DNA of 64,000 bases from assembly GCA_009839505.1 (NCBI GenBank), contig VXPO01000155.1, positions 62,001 through 126,000 of the forward strand, in the 5' to 3' direction. A program made the translations under genes and the position numbers. This document shows, in pieces, positions 5,928-35,792 of this stretch. Origin of the DNA: Gammaproteobacteria bacterium (GTDB taxonomy: Bacteria > Pseudomonadota > Gammaproteobacteria > Pseudomonadales > Azotimanducaceae). The first letter of the stretch is position 1, and each line of letters begins with the position of its first letter. The notes below the pieces were generated by a model, which searched no databases, was not told where the DNA came from, and saw only the letters and a list, made by a program, of their open reading frames with translations.

Positions 5928-7334
5928 ATGGTCATCGTCGGGAATCGCCGTCTGGTCGCGGCACTTGCTGCACTGGTTCTGTCCGGATGTGCGGAACAAA
6001 CGTCCGAATCCACCATCCCCAACATCCCTACCGTCGAAACCCGGGGTATGGAGGCACCCGTCCGGATCCTGATCGACGCCGTCGCACGTAACCTCGAGGG
6101 CGACCGCCACTCGGCCATCGCCTGGGGAAGGCTCGGGCGGGTCTACCACGCCCACGAGCTGTATACCCCGGCGCTCGTCTGCTACGAGCAGGCAATTCGG
6201 CTGGACCGAGACGACTACCAGTGGCCCTACCTCGCTGCCCACGCCGCCTCGCAGGTCGACAAGGACGCTGCGGTGGCGCTTTTCGAGCAGGCACGCAAGC
6301 GGGCGCCGCGCCATGCCACGGTTCTTGTCGCCCAGGGCGAGCTTCTTCGGCAGCTGGGTCGCTCAGACGACGCTCGTGATGCCTTCCTGGCAGCGCTCGA
6401 AGCCGATGACCGGTCCAGCTTTGCACGCGTGGGATTGGCCAGAGTGGCGCTCGTCGAGGGCGACTTGCCGCGAGCGCGGTCCCTGCTTGAACGAGCCGCC
6501 GAATTGACGCCGACCGACGGCAGCATCTATCCCCTGCTCACCCGGGTCCATGCACGGCTCGGCGAGTCCGATCTGGCCGTACGCGCCGAATGGCTCGCCA
6601 AGGTCCACGACACGCCGCTGGCACCCCGCGACCCGGCGCTCGACGCAATGCGAGGACTCGCCGCGAACTCGCACGCGCTGGCCTCGGCTGGGACGGCCCT
6701 CGCCGCACGCGGCGAACTACGCGCAGCCGAGGCGCAGTTCCGCAAGGTGCTCTCGATCCGTCCGGGCACACCCCAGGACCTCGGCAATCTCGCCACCGTG
6801 CTGTCACGCCAAGGTCGGCACGCCGAGGCGATGGAATTCTTCGCCCGGGGCCTCGCCGGGAGCCCCGACGACATCGTCCTGTTGAGCCACCAGGGACTGA
6901 CACAGATGATGATCGGCGACGTGGAAGCCGCGGAGGCCTCCCTTAAGCGCGCGGCGACCCTCGATCCGTCCTATCCGCAGGGACAGTTCAATCTCGGCAC
7001 GCTTCGCTTCGGTCAGGGCAGGCACCGGGATGCCATCGCTCTCTTCCAACGCACGCTGGCCCTCGATCCCGGACTGACGGACGCCTACCTCAACCTCGGT
7101 AGTGCCCATGCGGCTGTCGAAGAATTCGAAGCCGCACTCGAGCCTTGGAAGCGGTTGCGCGAGATCCAACCGGACAACGCATCGCTGATCCACAACATTG
7201 CGCTGGCGAACGCCCGACTCGGAAGGCTCGACACCGCCATAGCCGAGTTCCAGCGCGCCATCCAACTAGACCCCGACAGCCCCGCCAGCCGCCGCGAGCT
7301 GGCGCGTGCCCGAGCCCGCCAACGTCAAGACTAG
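5928..7334 (+). CDS. Tetratricopeptide-repeat lipoprotein
   Basis: This is a 468-residue TPR protein. Residues 1-21 (MVIVGNRRLVAALAALVLSGC) form a classical lipoprotein signal with lipobox LSGC, so the mature protein is probably membrane-anchored in the periplasm. TPR units run through most of the rest, for example AIAWGRLGRVYHAHELYTPA near residue 65 and AYLNLGSAHAAVEEFEAALE near 390, ending with ALANARLGRLDTAIAEFQRA. It follows the FG-GAP/UnbV gene by two bases and is surely in the same operon, so it may scaffold that protein. Its TAG stop lies in the CTAG tetramer that forms the left border of the multi-hairpin element at 7331. Confidence 0.85.
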   Translation: MVIVGNRRLVAALAALVLSGCAEQTSESTIPNIPTVETRGMEAPVRILIDAVARNLEGDRHSAIAWGRLGRVYHAHELYTPALVCYEQAIRLDRDDYQWPYLAAHAASQVDKDAAVALFEQARKRAPRHATVLVAQGELLRQLGRSDDARDAFLAALEADDRSSFARVGLARVALVEGDLPRARSLLERAAELTPTDGSIYPLLTRVHARLGESDLAVRAEWLAKVHDTPLAPRDPALDAMRGLAANSHALASAGTALAARGELRAAEAQFRKVLSIRPGTPQDLGNLATVLSRQGRHAEAMEFFARGLAGSPDDIVLLSHQGLTQMMIGDVEAAEASLKRAATLDPSYPQGQFNLGTLRFGQGRHRDAIALFQRTLALDPGLTDAYLNLGSAHAAVEEFEAALEPWKRLREIQPDNASLIHNIALANARLGRLDTAIAEFQRAIQLDPDSPASRRELARARARQRQD

Positions 7335-7482
7335 GGAAGCTCTGATTCAGAGCTTCCCTAGCGCGGCACAAGGATGTGCCGCCAAATTCGATGGCGCAAG
7401 CCATTGAATTTGTGAGCAAAACAAAACCGCGATTTTGTTTTGCTCCTGATCAAGCCCATGGACGGGCTTGATCAGAGGTTTG
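7331..7482 (+). mobile_element. Multi-hairpin MITE-like element, full-length copy 1
   Basis: Five hairpins stand in a row with almost no spacers: 7331-7361 (14-bp arms), 7363-7382 (8-bp arms, loop AGGA), 7384-7411 (12-bp arms with one G.T pair, GCAA loop), 7415-7444 (12-bp arms) and 7446-7475 (12-bp arms). AGGTTT follows. The ends carry imperfect inverted repeats (AAGCTCTGAT at the left, AACCTCTGAT read inward from the right). The element is flanked by CTAG at 7331-7334 and again at 7483-7486, which looks like a 4-bp target duplication. It lies between convergent genes and overlaps the stop codon of the TPR gene. About 97% identical to the copy at 24618. No transposase is present, so it would need one supplied in trans. 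Confidence 0.8.
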
Positions 7483-8622
7483 CTAGTCGGCTTGGCGCCG
7501 GAGGAACGCTGGAATGTCCAGGTAGTCCGCGTCCGCCGGTCGCGGCCGGGCCCCGGCGTCTTCGTCCGTTGCGCTCCTGCGCATCACCGTGGGACGGTCG
7601 AAATCGGCGTAGTCGAACGTTCCGGTCTTGGCCGGCACCGGCACGGGCTCCCTGACGAGCTCGGGTTTCCCGTCGGACAGCCCGGTGGCCACGATCGTGA
7701 TGCGCATCTCGTCGCCAAGGTCTTCGTCGTTGACGGTGCCGATCACCAACGTCGCACTCTTCGACGCAATGCCGCGGACCGCCTGGCCGATCTCGTGGAA
7801 TTCCCGAACCCCCACGCTCGGCGCGGTCGTGATGTTCACAACCACGCCTCGAGCCCCGCTCAGGTCGACGCCTTCTAGAAGGGGGCTGCGCACGGCCTCT
7901 TCGATCGCCACACTGGCCCGGTCGCTGCCCGAGGCTTGGCCCGTGCCCATGATGGCCATGCCACGCTCGGACATCACGGTCCGCACATCGGCGAAGTCGA
8001 CGTTCATCTTGCCGGGTCGGATGATGATGTCGGAAATTCCTCGGACGGCACCGAGCAGAACATCGTCGGCGGCGGCGAATGCCTCGTCCATGGAGGCGTT
8101 GTCGTCGAGAACGTCCTGCAGCTTGTCGTTGGATATGGCGATCACGGAATCCACGTGCTGGCTCACCTCGGCGATCCCCTGCTCGGCTACCTTGGTGCGA
8201 TTCTCGAACTCGAACGGCTTGGTCACCACGGCCACCGCCAAGGCACCGAGTTCCTTCGCCACCTCGGCGACCACCGGCGCCGCCCCCGTGCCCGTTCCAC
8301 CACCCATTCCAGCCGTCACGAACACCATGTCCGCGCCGGAGAGGGCTTCATGGATCCGGTCGCGATCCTCCATCGCCGCCTGGCGTCCCACCTCGGGGCT
8401 CGCGCCCGCGCCCAGACCCTTGGTGATGTTCGCTCCCAGCTGCAGCGTGGTCGGTGCGTGAACGTTGTCCAACGCCTGGGCATCGGTATTGGCGGCAATG
8501 AAGTCGACGCCTTCGACGCAGCTCCTCACCATGTGCTGGACCGCGTTGCCGCCGCCGCCGCCGACTCCGATCACCTTGATGACCGCACTGCGCGGCGGGG
8601 TGTCTACCATTTCGAATGACAT
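7483..8622 (-). CDS. ftsZ: Cell division GTPase FtsZ
   Basis: FtsZ is the tubulin homologue that forms the cytokinetic ring. The 379-residue protein shows the GTP-binding start VIGVGGGGGNAVQHM, the tubulin signature GGGTGTGAAPVVAEVA and the T7-loop region GKMNVDFADVRTVM. It ends with the conserved peptide DYLDIPAFLRRQAD, which binds FtsA and ZipA. The start ATG at 8622 has a good AAGGAG ribosome site about nine bases upstream. It is the last gene of the dcw operon, 57 bases after ftsA. Its TAG stop lies in the CTAG that borders the hairpin element. LpxC, the usual next gene, is more than 3.5 kb away. Confidence 0.97.
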   Translation of the reverse strand: MSFEMVDTPPRSAVIKVIGVGGGGGNAVQHMVRSCVEGVDFIAANTDAQALDNVHAPTTLQLGANITKGLGAGASPEVGRQAAMEDRDRIHEALSGADMVFVTAGMGGGTGTGAAPVVAEVAKELGALAVAVVTKPFEFENRTKVAEQGIAEVSQHVDSVIAISNDKLQDVLDDNASMDEAFAAADDVLLGAVRGISDIIIRPGKMNVDFADVRTVMSERGMAIMGTGQASGSDRASVAIEEAVRSPLLEGVDLSGARGVVVNITTAPSVGVREFHEIGQAVRGIASKSATLVIGTVNDEDLGDEMRITIVATGLSDGKPELVREPVPVPAKTGTFDYADFDRPTVMRRSATDEDAGARPRPADADYLDIPAFLRRQAD

Positions 8623-22754: not shown

Positions 22755-24782
22755 CTAGTCGCCGAGCGCTGCCAGTCCCTCCTCGACGCGGCGCGCCTTG
22801 TCCTCGTCCCACCACCAGGCATCGACGAACGGTACCCGGTTGAGATCATCCCGGCGCACTTCGCCGAACTTGTCCCAGTGCACCAGGCGGAAACCCGGTT
22901 GCGAGCCGAGTGGGATCAGGTAGAAGTTCCACAGGAAGACACGGTCGAGCGCGCGCGTTGCCGCGTACAGATCCTCCGCGGTCTTCGCGGAGATGATCGA
23001 CTCGATCAGGCTGTCGAGCACCGGATCGCGGATTCGTGCCCAGTTCTGGCCGTAGTCCTGGCCGGCCGATTCGCTGCCGAACCAATTGCGCAAGGCAAGC
23101 CCCGGCATATGGCCCGGTCCCCAGCGGTTGGAGTTGCCGTCGAACTTGCCCGTCCGGCTGCGGTAGAGCCACTGGGAGACTTCCGGCGACCGTCCAGAGG
23201 CCTTGATACCCACCCGCGCGAGATTGTCCATCAGCGACAGGTTCTGCCGGATGGAGTAGTACGACACGCCGATGAAGTTCAGGCTCAGCTGCTCGCCCGT
23301 CTCGATGTTGCGCATGTCGCCGTCGCGCATCTCCCATCCGGCTTCCTTGAAGAGCGCGAGCGCACGCTTGATCCGGTCCCGCCGCAGACCGTAGCCCGTG
23401 CTCGGCGGATGATCGAAAGCCTCCGTGAAGACCCGCGACGGCACTTGGTCGCGCCAGGGTTCCAACAACTGCAGTTCCCTTTCGCTCGGCAGACCGCTGT
23501 GTGCCATGGGTGAGTTCTGGAACAGGCTCACACCCTTTAGGTAGAAGTTGTAGAACAGCACCCGGTTAGTCCACCCGAAGTCGTACAGAAGCCACAGGGC
23601 TTCGCGCACGCGAACGTCGTTCAAAGGCGGCTTTTCGGTGTTCCAGAAAATGGGCCACCAGAGTCCCTCCACGCGCGTCAGCTTGCGCAGATCCCGCTTG
23701 AAGAGCCCCGCGCGAACGGCAGGGAAGTCGTACTGGGTCGCCCAGTTCTTGGATACGCCCTCCTCGCGGATGTCGAAGACGTCACTCTTGTGCGCCTCCA
23801 ACATCACGCCGTCGTCCTTGAAGTAGTCGAACTTGATGCGAGAGAAGTTGTATCGGCCGCGGTTCACCGGGATGTCGCGGCCCCAGTAGTCCTCGTCGAG
23901 TTCGAACTCCAGCAGCCGCCCGGTCTCCGCGCGCTTCAACCGGTAGGGACCACTACCCATCGGCGGCTCGACCGTGGTCTTGGTGATGTCGCGGGTTTCC
24001 CAGTAGTGCTTCGGCAGGATGCTGTAGCCACCGATGGCGAACGGCAGGGCGGGATTGACCTCCCGTTCCGTGTTGCGCACAAAGCAGACCTCGCGCTCGC
24101 CGAACGCGAACACGCGCTCAAGGTCCGACAAGGCGGTACGGATCGCCACCGAGCCGTGTTCGAGGAACATCTCGAAAGTGAAGAGCACGTCGTCCACCGT
24201 GATCGGCTCGCCGTCGTGCCAGTAGGCGTTGTCGCGCAGCTTGAAGGCGACCCAGTCGAGATCAGGTCCCTTCGCCACTCCCTCGGCCAGCCGGCCGTAG
24301 GCGCTCACCGGCTCATCGGCAGCCCCTTCGAGCAGCTTGTCGTAGACCAGTCCACCACCGACATCGAATCCGGCGGCCATCCGGCCCTTCTCCAGGATGT
24401 TGTTGTAGTTGTCGAAGGTGCCGAGCGACGGCAGACGCATCGTGCCCGTCTTCGGCGCATCCGGATTGGTCCACTCGAAATGGGTGAAATCCGCGCCGTA
24501 CTTGAGGGGCAGCAGGTAGGCGATGCCGTGCTTGTAGTCGGGATTCGAACATGGGGGCTCGGTGGCGGCGACCGTCAATGTCGTCAACAACGCGACGAAA
24601 CCCAGGAACTTGCCCTGTAGGGCAGCTCTGATTAAGAGCTTCCCTAGCGCGGCACAGGGATGTGCCGCCAAATTCGATGGCGCAAGCCATTGAATTTGTG
24701 AGCAAAACAAAACCGCGCTTTTGTTTTGCTCCTGATCAAGCCCATGGACGGGCTTGATCAGAGGTTTCTTAGCACTGTCCAT
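22755..24782 (-). CDS. YejA-like peptide ABC transporter substrate-binding protein with repeat-disrupted start
   Basis: This periplasmic family-5 solute-binding protein resembles YejA (oligopeptide/microcin C uptake). It shows KYGADFTHFEWTNPDAPKTG after the signal peptide, WHDGEPITVDDVLFTFEMFL, SILPKHYWETRDITKTTVEP and MGSGPYRL. No permease or ATPase is adjacent. The signal peptide (GKFLGFVALLTTLTVAA) has no ATG/GTG/TTG just before it, because a multi-hairpin element sits there (24618-24769). Without the element, GTG (24775) CTA CAG GGC AAG TTC would begin the signal peptide directly. With it, the only open route is the ATG at 24782, which reads in frame through the element and adds about 50 residues. 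The gene may be expressed with an odd N-terminus or be impaired. Confidence 0.8.
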   Translation of the reverse strand: MDSAKKPLIKPVHGLDQEQNKSAVLFCSQIQWLAPSNLAAHPCAALGKLLIRAALQGKFLGFVALLTTLTVAATEPPCSNPDYKHGIAYLLPLKYGADFTHFEWTNPDAPKTGTMRLPSLGTFDNYNNILEKGRMAAGFDVGGGLVYDKLLEGAADEPVSAYGRLAEGVAKGPDLDWVAFKLRDNAYWHDGEPITVDDVLFTFEMFLEHGSVAIRTALSDLERVFAFGEREVCFVRNTEREVNPALPFAIGGYSILPKHYWETRDITKTTVEPPMGSGPYRLKRAETGRLLEFELDEDYWGRDIPVNRGRYNFSRIKFDYFKDDGVMLEAHKSDVFDIREEGVSKNWATQYDFPAVRAGLFKRDLRKLTRVEGLWWPIFWNTEKPPLNDVRVREALWLLYDFGWTNRVLFYNFYLKGVSLFQNSPMAHSGLPSERELQLLEPWRDQVPSRVFTEAFDHPPSTGYGLRRDRIKRALALFKEAGWEMRDGDMRNIETGEQLSLNFIGVSYYSIRQNLSLMDNLARVGIKASGRSPEVSQWLYRSRTGKFDGNSNRWGPGHMPGLALRNWFGSESAGQDYGQNWARIRDPVLDSLIESIISAKTAEDLYAATRALDRVFLWNFYLIPLGSQPGFRLVHWDKFGEVRRDDLNRVPFVDAWWWDEDKARRVEEGLAALGD
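24618..24769 (-). mobile_element. Multi-hairpin MITE-like element, full-length copy 2
   Basis: This is the same five-hairpin element as at 7331, differing at about four positions over 150 bp. Two changes are in hairpin loops (AGGA to GGGA; CCGCGA to CCGCGC). One shortens the first stem by a pair and one creates a mismatch in it. It has inserted at the 5' end of the YejA-like gene. TAG occurs on both sides (24618-24620 and 24770-24772), consistent with a short target duplication. In the direction of the gene it contains no stop in one frame, so a continuous open frame crosses it. Confidence 0.8.
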
Positions 24783-34068: not shown

Positions 34069-34122
34069 GCCGAGCGGCCCATAGACTGGCAACGCTACAA
34101 GGCGCTGTGCGACCAGCCGAAT

Positions 34123-34410
34123 GTGTTGTCCCGCTGGATGCTGGTGGAGACGGCGTCGCTCCTTGACGACCCCTTACGCGCCACGTTGCTCGCGAACTGC
34201 CAAGGTACACCGCTACCCAAACCGGGGGACCACAAGGGCGGCGTCGACACGGACATGTTCGAGGTTGGATTGTCACCGGTCGAAGTCGCCGCGATCCTCG
34301 GCGTCGTCGAGGCCGCGGCGCAGCGCGGCGCGACGACGCCCCGCAGTGCAAAGCTCGGCGGCTTCGTGGCGGCGTGGCGGGAACTCAAGGAGTGGCACCG
34401 GAATGTTTGA
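34123..34410 (+). CDS. Small conserved-looking protein upstream of biotin carboxylase, function unknown
   Basis: This reading frame of at least 95 residues (SRWMLVETASLLDDPLRATL at the start, FEVGLSPVEVAAILGVVEAA mid-protein) is mostly helical and without signal peptide or cysteines. The frame is open and coding-like back to 34081 (reading I/M-DWQRYKALCDQPNVLSRW), just after the purH stop. That extension has no ATG: an ATA occupies the likely first codon, so the start is either ATA 34081 or GTG 34123. Its stop overlaps the biotin carboxylase ATG (ATGTTTGA), pointing to coupled translation and a role with the carboxylase. I do not recognise the family. Confidence 0.6.
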   Translation: MLSRWMLVETASLLDDPLRATLLANCQGTPLPKPGDHKGGVDTDMFEVGLSPVEVAAILGVVEAAAQRGATTPRSAKLGGFVAAWRELKEWHRNV

Positions 34411-35722
34411 CCGCGTCTTCATCGCCAACCGCGCCACCGTCGCAAGACGCGTAGCCCGCGCCTGCCGCGATCTGGGTATCGACAGCGTTGCCGTCTACGC
34501 CGACATCGACGCCGCGGCACCCCACCTCGGCGAAGCCACCGCCACTGCCCGTCTGCCGGGTTACCGCGCCCAAGACACGTACCTCAACGCAACGCGGCTG
34601 ATCGAGACCGCGAAACAGTCCCGCTGCGATGCCCTGCACCCGGGCTACGGTTTCCTGGCCGAAAATGCCGCCTTTGCCCGCGCGGTGGAAGATGCCGGAA
34701 TCCGGTTCATCGGGCCCGACCCCCGGTGGATCGAGACCCTCGGCGACAAGACCCGGGCTCGCCAGGCGATGGCTGAGGCGGGGTTTCCCGTCCACGCGGG
34801 CAGCGGTGTTCTGAACGACCTCGACGCTGCCATGGAGGCGGCCCGCGAAATCGGTCTTCCGGCATTGCTGAAGCCCGCCGCCGGGGGTGGCGGCATTGGC
34901 ATGGTTCGCGTGTCCAGCGAGGCCGAGTTGGCCAACGCCTACGCCGCAGCCCGCACACAGGCCGCCAATGCCTTCGGCAACGACGCGGTCTATGTCGAGA
35001 CGTGGCTCGATCGGCCGAGGCATATCGAGTTCCAAGTCATCGGCGATGGCGACACGACCCTCGGCGTGCTGGAACGGGAGTGCTCCGTGCAGCGACGCCA
35101 CCAGAAGGTCATCGAGGAAGCGCCGGCACCCGGACTCGACCGGTCGGTGCTCGCCGGGATCGAAGCCGCCGCGACGAGCGCCCTAGACGGCTACGACAGC
35201 CTCGGCACCGTCGAAACCCTGTACGCCGATGGCGAATTCGGGTTCCTGGAGGTGAACACCCGACTGCAGGTCGAACACGGCGTCACCGAAGCCATCACCG
35301 GCATCGATCTCGTCAGAGCGCAGATCCGCATCGCCGCGGGCGAACATCTGAGCGAGGTGATGCCCGCCACGGTCGCAGCACAAGGGCATGCGGTCGAGGC
35401 GAGAATCTACGCCGAGGACTCACGGCGGCGGCTGCCCTCCACGGGCCGGCTGTCGGTCTATCGACCACCCGACCTCACGGGCGTGCGCATCGAGTCGGGC
35501 TACGCGGAGGGCCAGTGGGTGACGCCGTACTTCGATCCCCTGCTCGCCAAGGTCATCGGCACCGGGGCCACCCGCGAACAAGCCATCGGTCGTACGCTCG
35601 TCGGCGTCAAGGCGTTCGACATCCAAGGCATCGACACGAACCGCGAACTGTTGCAGAACGTCCTCGGCAGCGAGCCGTTCATCGCCGGCCGCCTGCACAC
35701 CGGGATGCTGGGGAAGCTCTGA
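34403..35722 (+). CDS. Biotin carboxylase subunit of an acyl-CoA carboxylase
   Basis: This is a 439-residue ATP-grasp biotin carboxylase, which carboxylates the biotin of the carrier protein with bicarbonate and ATP. The N-terminus MFDRVFIANRATVARRVARA, HPGYGFLAENAAFARA, LKPAAGGGGIGMVRV (glycine-rich ATP lid), ERECSVQRRHQKVIEEAPAP and EVNTRLQVEHGVTEAITGID are all diagnostic. The carrier and carboxyltransferase lie 1.3 kb downstream, separated by a hairpin element and an antisense Uma2 gene. The last residues (GKL) and the TGA stop are provided by the element at 35708, so the original C-terminus has been altered. Confidence 0.92.
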   Translation: MFDRVFIANRATVARRVARACRDLGIDSVAVYADIDAAAPHLGEATATARLPGYRAQDTYLNATRLIETAKQSRCDALHPGYGFLAENAAFARAVEDAGIRFIGPDPRWIETLGDKTRARQAMAEAGFPVHAGSGVLNDLDAAMEAAREIGLPALLKPAAGGGGIGMVRVSSEAELANAYAAARTQAANAFGNDAVYVETWLDRPRHIEFQVIGDGDTTLGVLERECSVQRRHQKVIEEAPAPGLDRSVLAGIEAAATSALDGYDSLGTVETLYADGEFGFLEVNTRLQVEHGVTEAITGIDLVRAQIRIAAGEHLSEVMPATVAAQGHAVEARIYAEDSRRRLPSTGRLSVYRPPDLTGVRIESGYAEGQWVTPYFDPLLAKVIGTGATREQAIGRTLVGVKAFDIQGIDTNRELLQNVLGSEPFIAGRLHTGMLGKL

Positions 35723-35792
35723 TTAAGAGCTTCCCCAGCGCGGCACAGGGATGTGCCGCCAAGCCCATGGACGGGCTTGATCAGAGGTTTCC
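35708..35792 (+). mobile_element. Multi-hairpin MITE-like element, copy 3 (internal deletion)
   Basis: This copy keeps hairpin 1 (CTGGGGAAGCTCT/AGAGCTTCCCCAG), hairpin 2 (GCGGCACA/TGTGCCGC) and the right arm of hairpin 5 with AGAGGTTT. It has lost about 68 bases covering hairpins 3 and 4 and the left arm of 5. The junction lies at a CAA that occurs at both ends of the missing part, so deletion by microhomology is likely. In stem 1 an A-T pair of copy 1 (CTAGGG/CCCTAG) is G-C here on both arms (CTGGGG/CCCCAG), a compensating change. It supplies the stop codon of the biotin carboxylase gene. Confidence 0.7.

Follow-up and report, generated by a model that had tools for sequence, protein, structure and literature searches.

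Bacterial MITEs, which are non-autonomous transposable elements, are usually regarded as dead remnants of insertion sequences (ISs), and the REP and REPIN sequences that go with RAYT transposases are dispersed intergenic palindromes. In the available portion of a review of prokaryotic MITEs (PMC10969869), sRNA roles are treated as open and CsrA does not occur; the name is likewise absent from the main text, so far as accessible, of the paper on the QMITE elements (PMC5896051). According to the excerpted text of Duss et al. 2014 (PMC4005645), the high-affinity CsrA/RsmE site is an ANGGAX hexaloop placed directly on a stem, with a C-G closing pair in the structure shown, and an A(N)GGAX loop lacking the N is weaker. 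In Pseudomonas putida, RNAs that adjoin ISPpu8 and a long palindrome are listed among the in vivo targets of RsmA, RsmE and RsmI (PMC7937890, in part). This remark on ISPpu8 was the only case of a MITE or repeat with CsrA sites in the literature searched, as far as its texts were available. The element described below was not found in that literature, which was mostly open-access and had ISfinder outside its scope.

The DNA analyzed here, referred to as the window, is a 64-kb stretch of the gammaproteobacterial genome G000 (4.7 Mb in 181 contigs). The first-pass annotation had reported three copies of a multi-hairpin repeat at 7331, 24618 and 35708, and all three were recovered there. Copy 1 (7335..7482, plus strand; GGAAGC...GGTTTG), as delimited by its sequence, the genome search and its flanks, is bordered on either side by CTAG, as had been stated. 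Comparison of the flanks identifies these tetramers (7331..7334 on the left and 7483..7486 on the right, without strand) as a target duplication, and the ends thus read CTAG-GGAAGCTCTGATT...TTGATCAGAGGTTTG-CTAG; the TAG stop of a plus-strand open frame ending at 7334 is part of the left CTAG. The five adjacent hairpins described earlier are present on the plus strand with arms of 14, 8, 13, 13 and 12 bp; the earlier values of 12 bp for the third and fourth arms were too short. Hairpin 1 (7331..7361) consists of the left inverted repeat and its complement, and its 14 bp extend into the CTAG target. It is followed by hairpin 2 (7363..7382), which is supported by folding, covariation and a kept loop, by hairpin 3 (7383..7412, loop GCAA) and hairpin 4 (7414..7445), both from the fold, and by hairpin 5 (7446..7475), from the fold and covariation. 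The right inverted repeat is made of the 3' arm of hairpin 5 and the tail at 7476-7482. Hairpin 2 carries the hexaloop AAGGAT (7370..7375, plus strand), a predicted CsrA/Rsm site of the form C-ANGGAN-G, and hairpin 5 carries ATGGAC (7458..7463, plus strand), a predicted second site. When copy 1 was folded with DNA parameters, the minimum free energy was -62.4 and that of shuffled sequences averaged -20.3 (z -14.05); none of 200 shuffles folded as well. No sigma-70-like promoter was found in this copy.

Copy 2 (24621..24768, plus strand; hexaloops at 24656-24661 and 24744-24749) shares the 97% identity with copy 1 that had been noted. Copy 3 (35712..35791, plus strand) is deleted as claimed, having lost hairpins 3 and 4 and kept hairpins 1, 2 and a shortened 5. 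Unlike copy 1, these two have non-identical flanks, GTAG/TTAG and CTGG/CGGG, respectively. Copy 3 adjoins the 3' end of an open frame (window 34121-35722) whose stop now lies inside the element (the TGA of CTCTGA); the allele of this frame in G001 is without the element.

The host genome contains at least 27 matching places, nine of them full length or nearly so; this count was read from 57 rows, with 40 of 53 candidates scored and with palindromic self-matches and the second halves of deleted copies removed. The loss of hairpins 3 and 4 is common to copy 3 and one other place in G000 (L022 and L024), and both retain the two GGA hairpins. Matches occurred in six of the 58 genomes searched, G000 included (the others being G001, G006, G011, G014 and G028); that in G014 was a single short one, and G028 belongs to another genus. 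G011 holds 13 copies of 142 bp with equal scores at different sites, nine of which, when compared, averaged 99.8% identity. Judged from their sequences, these near-identical copies at different sites are the product of a recent burst. No match was found in plasmids (single-sequence searches), in phages (a single-sequence search) or in viral contigs (one pattern search). Three features had escaped the first reading of the window, namely the spread past one genome, the CsrA motif and the lack of an RNA-level bias within genomes. A set of 76 copies was made up of those pattern copies, out of 122, in which hairpins 1 and 5 were recognized, plus the copies from the first 46 loci. One tandem (L216:1445-1800) consists of two element copies with one TTAA in common, as if the target duplication of one had received the other.

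The element is short, repeated and free of genes and has terminal inverted repeats, as is typical of MITEs. Target duplications were counted in copies with both ends readable. Among copies with CAGCCCGTTGAAAAA ends, 16 of 20 had the same tetramer on the left and the right, where shuffles averaged 2.05; for the right end AGAATAC, the flanking tetramers were identical in 13 of 25 against 3.74. The signal was weakest in the subfamily of the window (12 of 20 against 8.75, p 0.02) since CTAG makes up almost all of its sites, and in a small fourth end group the count (1/3) was the same as in the shuffles. The duplicated sequence has the form NTAN and is often CTAG. Copies flanked on both sides by CAAG or by CAAA, among others, exclude a duplication of TA alone and with it an IS630 origin. 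The IS630-type transposase PF13358 had one match above the cut-off in each of G001, G011 and G028 and a fragment below it in G000, and no matching ends were seen in the PF13358 loci of these three carriers.

Empty sites were sought by searching the joined flanks of 11 G000 copies against 16 genomes of the genus, one of them G000. Matches crossed the junction in G001 for L006, L007, L022 (copy 3), L005 (copy 2) and L002, and in G004 for L024. Upon alignment, the sister-species sites for L006 and L022, the latter being that of copy 3, were cleanly without the element. The element is also absent in G001 at L007 and at L005, the site of window copy 2, where the flanks have diverged; the alignment yielded a short match only for L024 and none for L002. 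The site of copy 1 in G001 (L338, G001:C122:34690-35400) is occupied, at the same CTAG, by a damaged element that points the other way and has a run of N.

ISs with matching ends were found for the CTCTGA end type only. They belong to the IS5 family (NF033581), are about 1.2 kb long and have the following ends: TTAG-GGAATCTCTGAACAA...TTGTTCAGAGGTTCC-TTAG in G001 (L323), TAAG-GGAGCCTCTGAACAA...GGTTCC-TAAG in G142 (L306), TATA-GAGACCTCTGAA...GGTCCC-TATA in G388 (L309), and GGAACCTCTGAT at either end, one of them at a contig edge, in G070 (L305). One IS with element-like ends comes from the window host's own genus. An IS and a MITE with closely matching ends occur together in two genomes: in G001, where the MITE in L040 starts with GGGAAGCTCTGAACAA and the frame of the IS is broken, and in G142, where GGAGCCTCTGA is common to the MITE in L234 and the IS. 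The elements seen in G388 and G070 have ends unlike those of the resident IS. For elements with CAGCCCGTTGAAAAA or GTGTCGCAAAA ends the search gave no mobilizer, and IS1182-type ISs with similar, not equal, ends occur (L199, L276). As for the search itself, 11 pairs of element-like ends lay 600-3000 bp apart in the loci, and the pair in L040 spans a long open frame. No matching ends were recognized among the terminal repeats of 36 transposase loci, two of them (L198, L202) containing the IS that was recognized later in L323; 32 further loci gave one IS5-like match (L290/L299), and 29 more gave the remaining ones. The RNA body of the element was not found in 13 IS loci with the covariance model described below (one match, E 0.97, was not credible), and the body is therefore not a simple deletion derivative of these ISs. 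Separately, a transposase frame in G028 (L193/L317) is bracketed by inverted copies of CTAGGAGCCTGCGCCGTAGGAA or a near version of it, a second repeat that also adjoins element copies in L075, L084 and L118. In G000, CTAG also immediately borders both ends of the transposase loci L199/L279 (CAGCCCCTGGCAAAA, IS1182-like) and L194 (GGCCTGTTGACATT), which are other ISs at CTAG sites in the element's own genome.

Because the ends are shared, we infer that the element is moved by IS5-family transposases. The earlier proposal of a non-autonomous element mobilized in this way is thus supported by the 4-bp duplications, the empty sites in the sister species and the IS5-family ISs with equal ends. The strong folding of the DNA and the palindromic ends would also suit hairpins that act as single-stranded DNA and form during replication as a step of transposition, on the model of REP-RAYT or IS200/IS605 systems. 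We consider this highly improbable in view of the target duplications, the matching IS5-family ends and the strand-asymmetric tolerance of G-U pairs reported below; in addition, the Y1 transposase had no match in the carriers G001, G006, G011 and G028 and nothing above sub-threshold matches in G000. Membership in the REP/RAYT or IS200/IS605 groups was rejected on the same grounds of target duplications and no fitting Y1 partner.

The body of the element, about 110 nt long, is found with several different end types. The pattern of hairpin 2 occurs in at least 116 stretches of species genomes, with matches in metagenome-assembled genomes labelled Pseudomonadales, Pseudohongiella, Gammaproteobacteria and Deltaproteobacteria. 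A covariance model was built from 22 copies; alignment A2 is the 25-row alignment A1 minus L009, L137 and L141. At E 0.001 per genome, a threshold at which a few matches are weak and the E-values rough, the model matched 64 of 369 genomes of the host's class, in 48 of 272 genera, and 50 of these 64 carriers have two or more matches. In the class of the deltaproteobacterial host, 21 of 257 genomes were matched, 12 of them at least twice; both counts include the source genomes. In the training alignment 99.1% of 550 cells are paired, the covariation score is 0.377 against 0.112 when shuffled, and both partners vary in 11 of 25 pairs against 8.1 in shuffles. The arms covary and vary from host to host, and the body of the element carries a conserved RNA structure. 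An RNA-level function, suggested in passing by the first-pass annotation, gains support from this covariation, from the near-invariant CsrA-type loops and from the strand-specific tolerance of G-U pairs. No match to Rfam 15 at gathering scores was found in the window, and 18 carrier loci gave tRNA matches only. Hairpin 3 has an optional extra domain of about 70-80 nt in gammaproteobacterial (L051, L109, L126, L148) and deltaproteobacterial (L055, L110, L162) copies.

The loops were examined in one copy from each of 49 genomes outside the training of the model, in which hairpin 2 was in register in 46 and out of register in three. Over these 46 genomes, C7, A8, G10, G11, A12 and G14 of hairpin 2 are kept at 98-100%. 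The arm positions 4-6 are kept at 61-74%, positions 4-6 and 15-17 taken together at 61-76%, and the outer ones (1-3, 18-20) at 89-100%, with 22 distinct arm pairs in total. The model slightly favors the loop letters, but it favored arm letters as much, the arm positions of hairpin 2 being equally or nearly as invariant as the loop letters in the training set. In hairpin 5, GGA lies in the loop in 48 of the 49 genomes on 28 distinct arms; by reading, the loop is A(N)GGA in 43 of 49, and a regular expression gives 46 but counts flanking letters. Its form is mostly ANGGAN or AGGAN, that of hairpin 2 is C-ANGGAN-G, and the two GGA motifs are 85-97 nt apart (54 copies). GGA in hairpin loops with the CsrA consensus is a property of CsrA-titrating RNAs, and the transcript is predicted to bind the host's CsrA/Rsm through hairpins 2 and 5. 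The loops might instead bind another partner, such as the ribosomal anti-Shine-Dalgarno sequence or a different protein, with the selfish logic unchanged. AGGA is also Shine-Dalgarno-like, and carriers are not enriched in csrA: 57 of the 64 have the gene, as do 256 of the 305 genomes that do not carry the element (Fisher p 0.34), where absence means that a genome is missing from the list of csrA-positive genomes. Nine of 10 genomes in a smaller set had csrA, and none was found in either genome of the carrier genus g168 (G184, 95% complete; G298, 55%). Against such a partner, which we regard as unlikely, the hexaloop form, the free N positions, the first A, the C-G closing pair and the doubled site all match CsrA/RsmE.

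If selection acted on DNA only, G-T and A-C mismatches in the stems should be about equally frequent. On the GGA strand, hairpins 1 and 4, which the model leaves unpaired, show 50 G-U against 7 A-C distinct events between families, and all element hairpins together show 65 against 11. The control of 743 other hairpins of the same loci gave 205 G-U versus 232 A-C. These strand tests exclude L263-L265, and their p-values overstate the evidence because the events share ancestry. The excess of G-U over A-C on the GGA strand between families indicates that the RNA is selected.

Comparison of copies to the majority sequence of their own genome gave a different picture, with 20 G-U versus 25 A-C events (53 copies in four genomes, hairpin 2 excluded); an earlier version that pooled several genomes gave 37 versus 38. 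These nearly equal gains bear on the possibility that the RNA serves the host, with resident copies in mRNAs acting as REP-like stabilizers, terminators or regulators of neighboring genes. Such a role would fit the dense folding and the position of copies 1 and 3, each of which sits in sense orientation at an open frame's 3' end. It would also fit the rates of change: in three of four genomes the stems have lower rates than the unpaired positions (0.029 v 0.049, 0.056 v 0.072 and 0.001 v 0.003), so that some selection could act on resident copies; in the fourth genome the stems change more (0.108 v 0.087). On the other side, no orientation bias was found in tandem-gene contexts (21 sense versus 26 antisense among 132 copies, with 27 in convergent and 26 in divergent contexts), and copy 1 has no terminator match. 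Together with the balanced within-genome gains, this makes a host function quite unlikely. The remaining copies comprise 22 of 132 inside predicted frames (18 antisense, 4 sense) and 10 of 132 without a usable flank. Stop codons are scarcer on the element's antisense strand in three of four subfamilies, and we therefore take most of the frames that contain copies to be spurious. With neither a G-U bias within genomes nor an orientation bias in tandem contexts, selection seems to act on source copies. The structure appears to be kept mainly in their lineage, a pattern that suggests that the RNA is selfish and not a regulator working for the host.

Our favored explanation, which we hold with somewhat more confidence than doubt, is that these are short transposase-less elements, likely mobilized by IS5 transposases, with a conserved RNA body of about 110 nt predicted to bind CsrA/Rsm via two A(N)GGAN hairpins. 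Source copies would be transcribed, probably by read-through, and hairpins 2 and 5 would hold a CsrA dimer in the manner of RsmZ-type RNAs. Titration of CsrA at or near the source copy would then favor the element, which is the least certain step; the benefit may be relief of repression on transposase messages, or an insertion made less harmful. Counting against this explanation are the lack of csrA enrichment among carriers, the negative promoter search in copy 1, the balanced orientation in tandem contexts, the end types with no matching IS, the broken IS frame in G001, the differing ends in G388 and G070, and the slower change of stems in three genomes of four. As a tentative extension, which we hold to be less likely than not, the elements may be selfish RNA parasites in at least two bacterial classes. 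A mobile CsrA decoy would disarm a global post-transcriptional repressor at the time and place of transposition and only source copies with a working RNA would multiply, as a counterpart to the source genes of SINEs, with the RNA kept and the transposase-recognized ends swapped.

The body of a MITE is here a conserved RNA structure with a recognizable protein-binding motif, present in a second class and, within that of the host, in about one sixth of the genomes sampled, and selection at the RNA level is visible between families and not among the copies within one genome. If the RNA binds CsrA, mobile DNA would plug directly into the global regulatory circuit of its hosts; even without such binding, it is a widespread structured RNA with no match in Rfam 15.

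Compared with known systems, the element resembles IS5-family MITEs in being short and gene-free, in its imperfect inverted ends and 4-bp NTAN duplication, and in having ends in common with IS5-family ISs. It differs from them in that its body is no internally deleted form of the ISs identified and in its RNA structure, which is conserved across several end types. Like REP and REPIN it consists of dispersed palindromes; unlike them it has target duplications and no fitting Y1-type partner. With CsrA-titrating RNAs of the CsrB/RsmY/RsmZ type, as far as the sources available describe them, it shares ANGGAN or AGGAN loops on stems, whereas it has just two sites, many copies, mobility and no Rfam match. 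The accessible text on QMITE1 and QMITE2 of Coxiella burnetii (PMC5896051) likewise presents MITEs that yield structured sRNAs, the RNA of our element being a predicted one; QMITE1 differs in its 300-400 bp length and 2-3 nt repeats, and QMITE2 in its repeats of 7-9 bp. The palindromes associated with ISPpu8 are, as here, IS-linked palindromic intergenic RNAs, and those are bound by all three Rsm proteins in the part of the study available (PMC7937890). Since ISPpu8 belongs to the IS4 family and has 11-bp repeats (PMC3056050, in excerpt), it is no known relative of the element and serves as a precedent for mobile palindromes that bind Rsm proteins.
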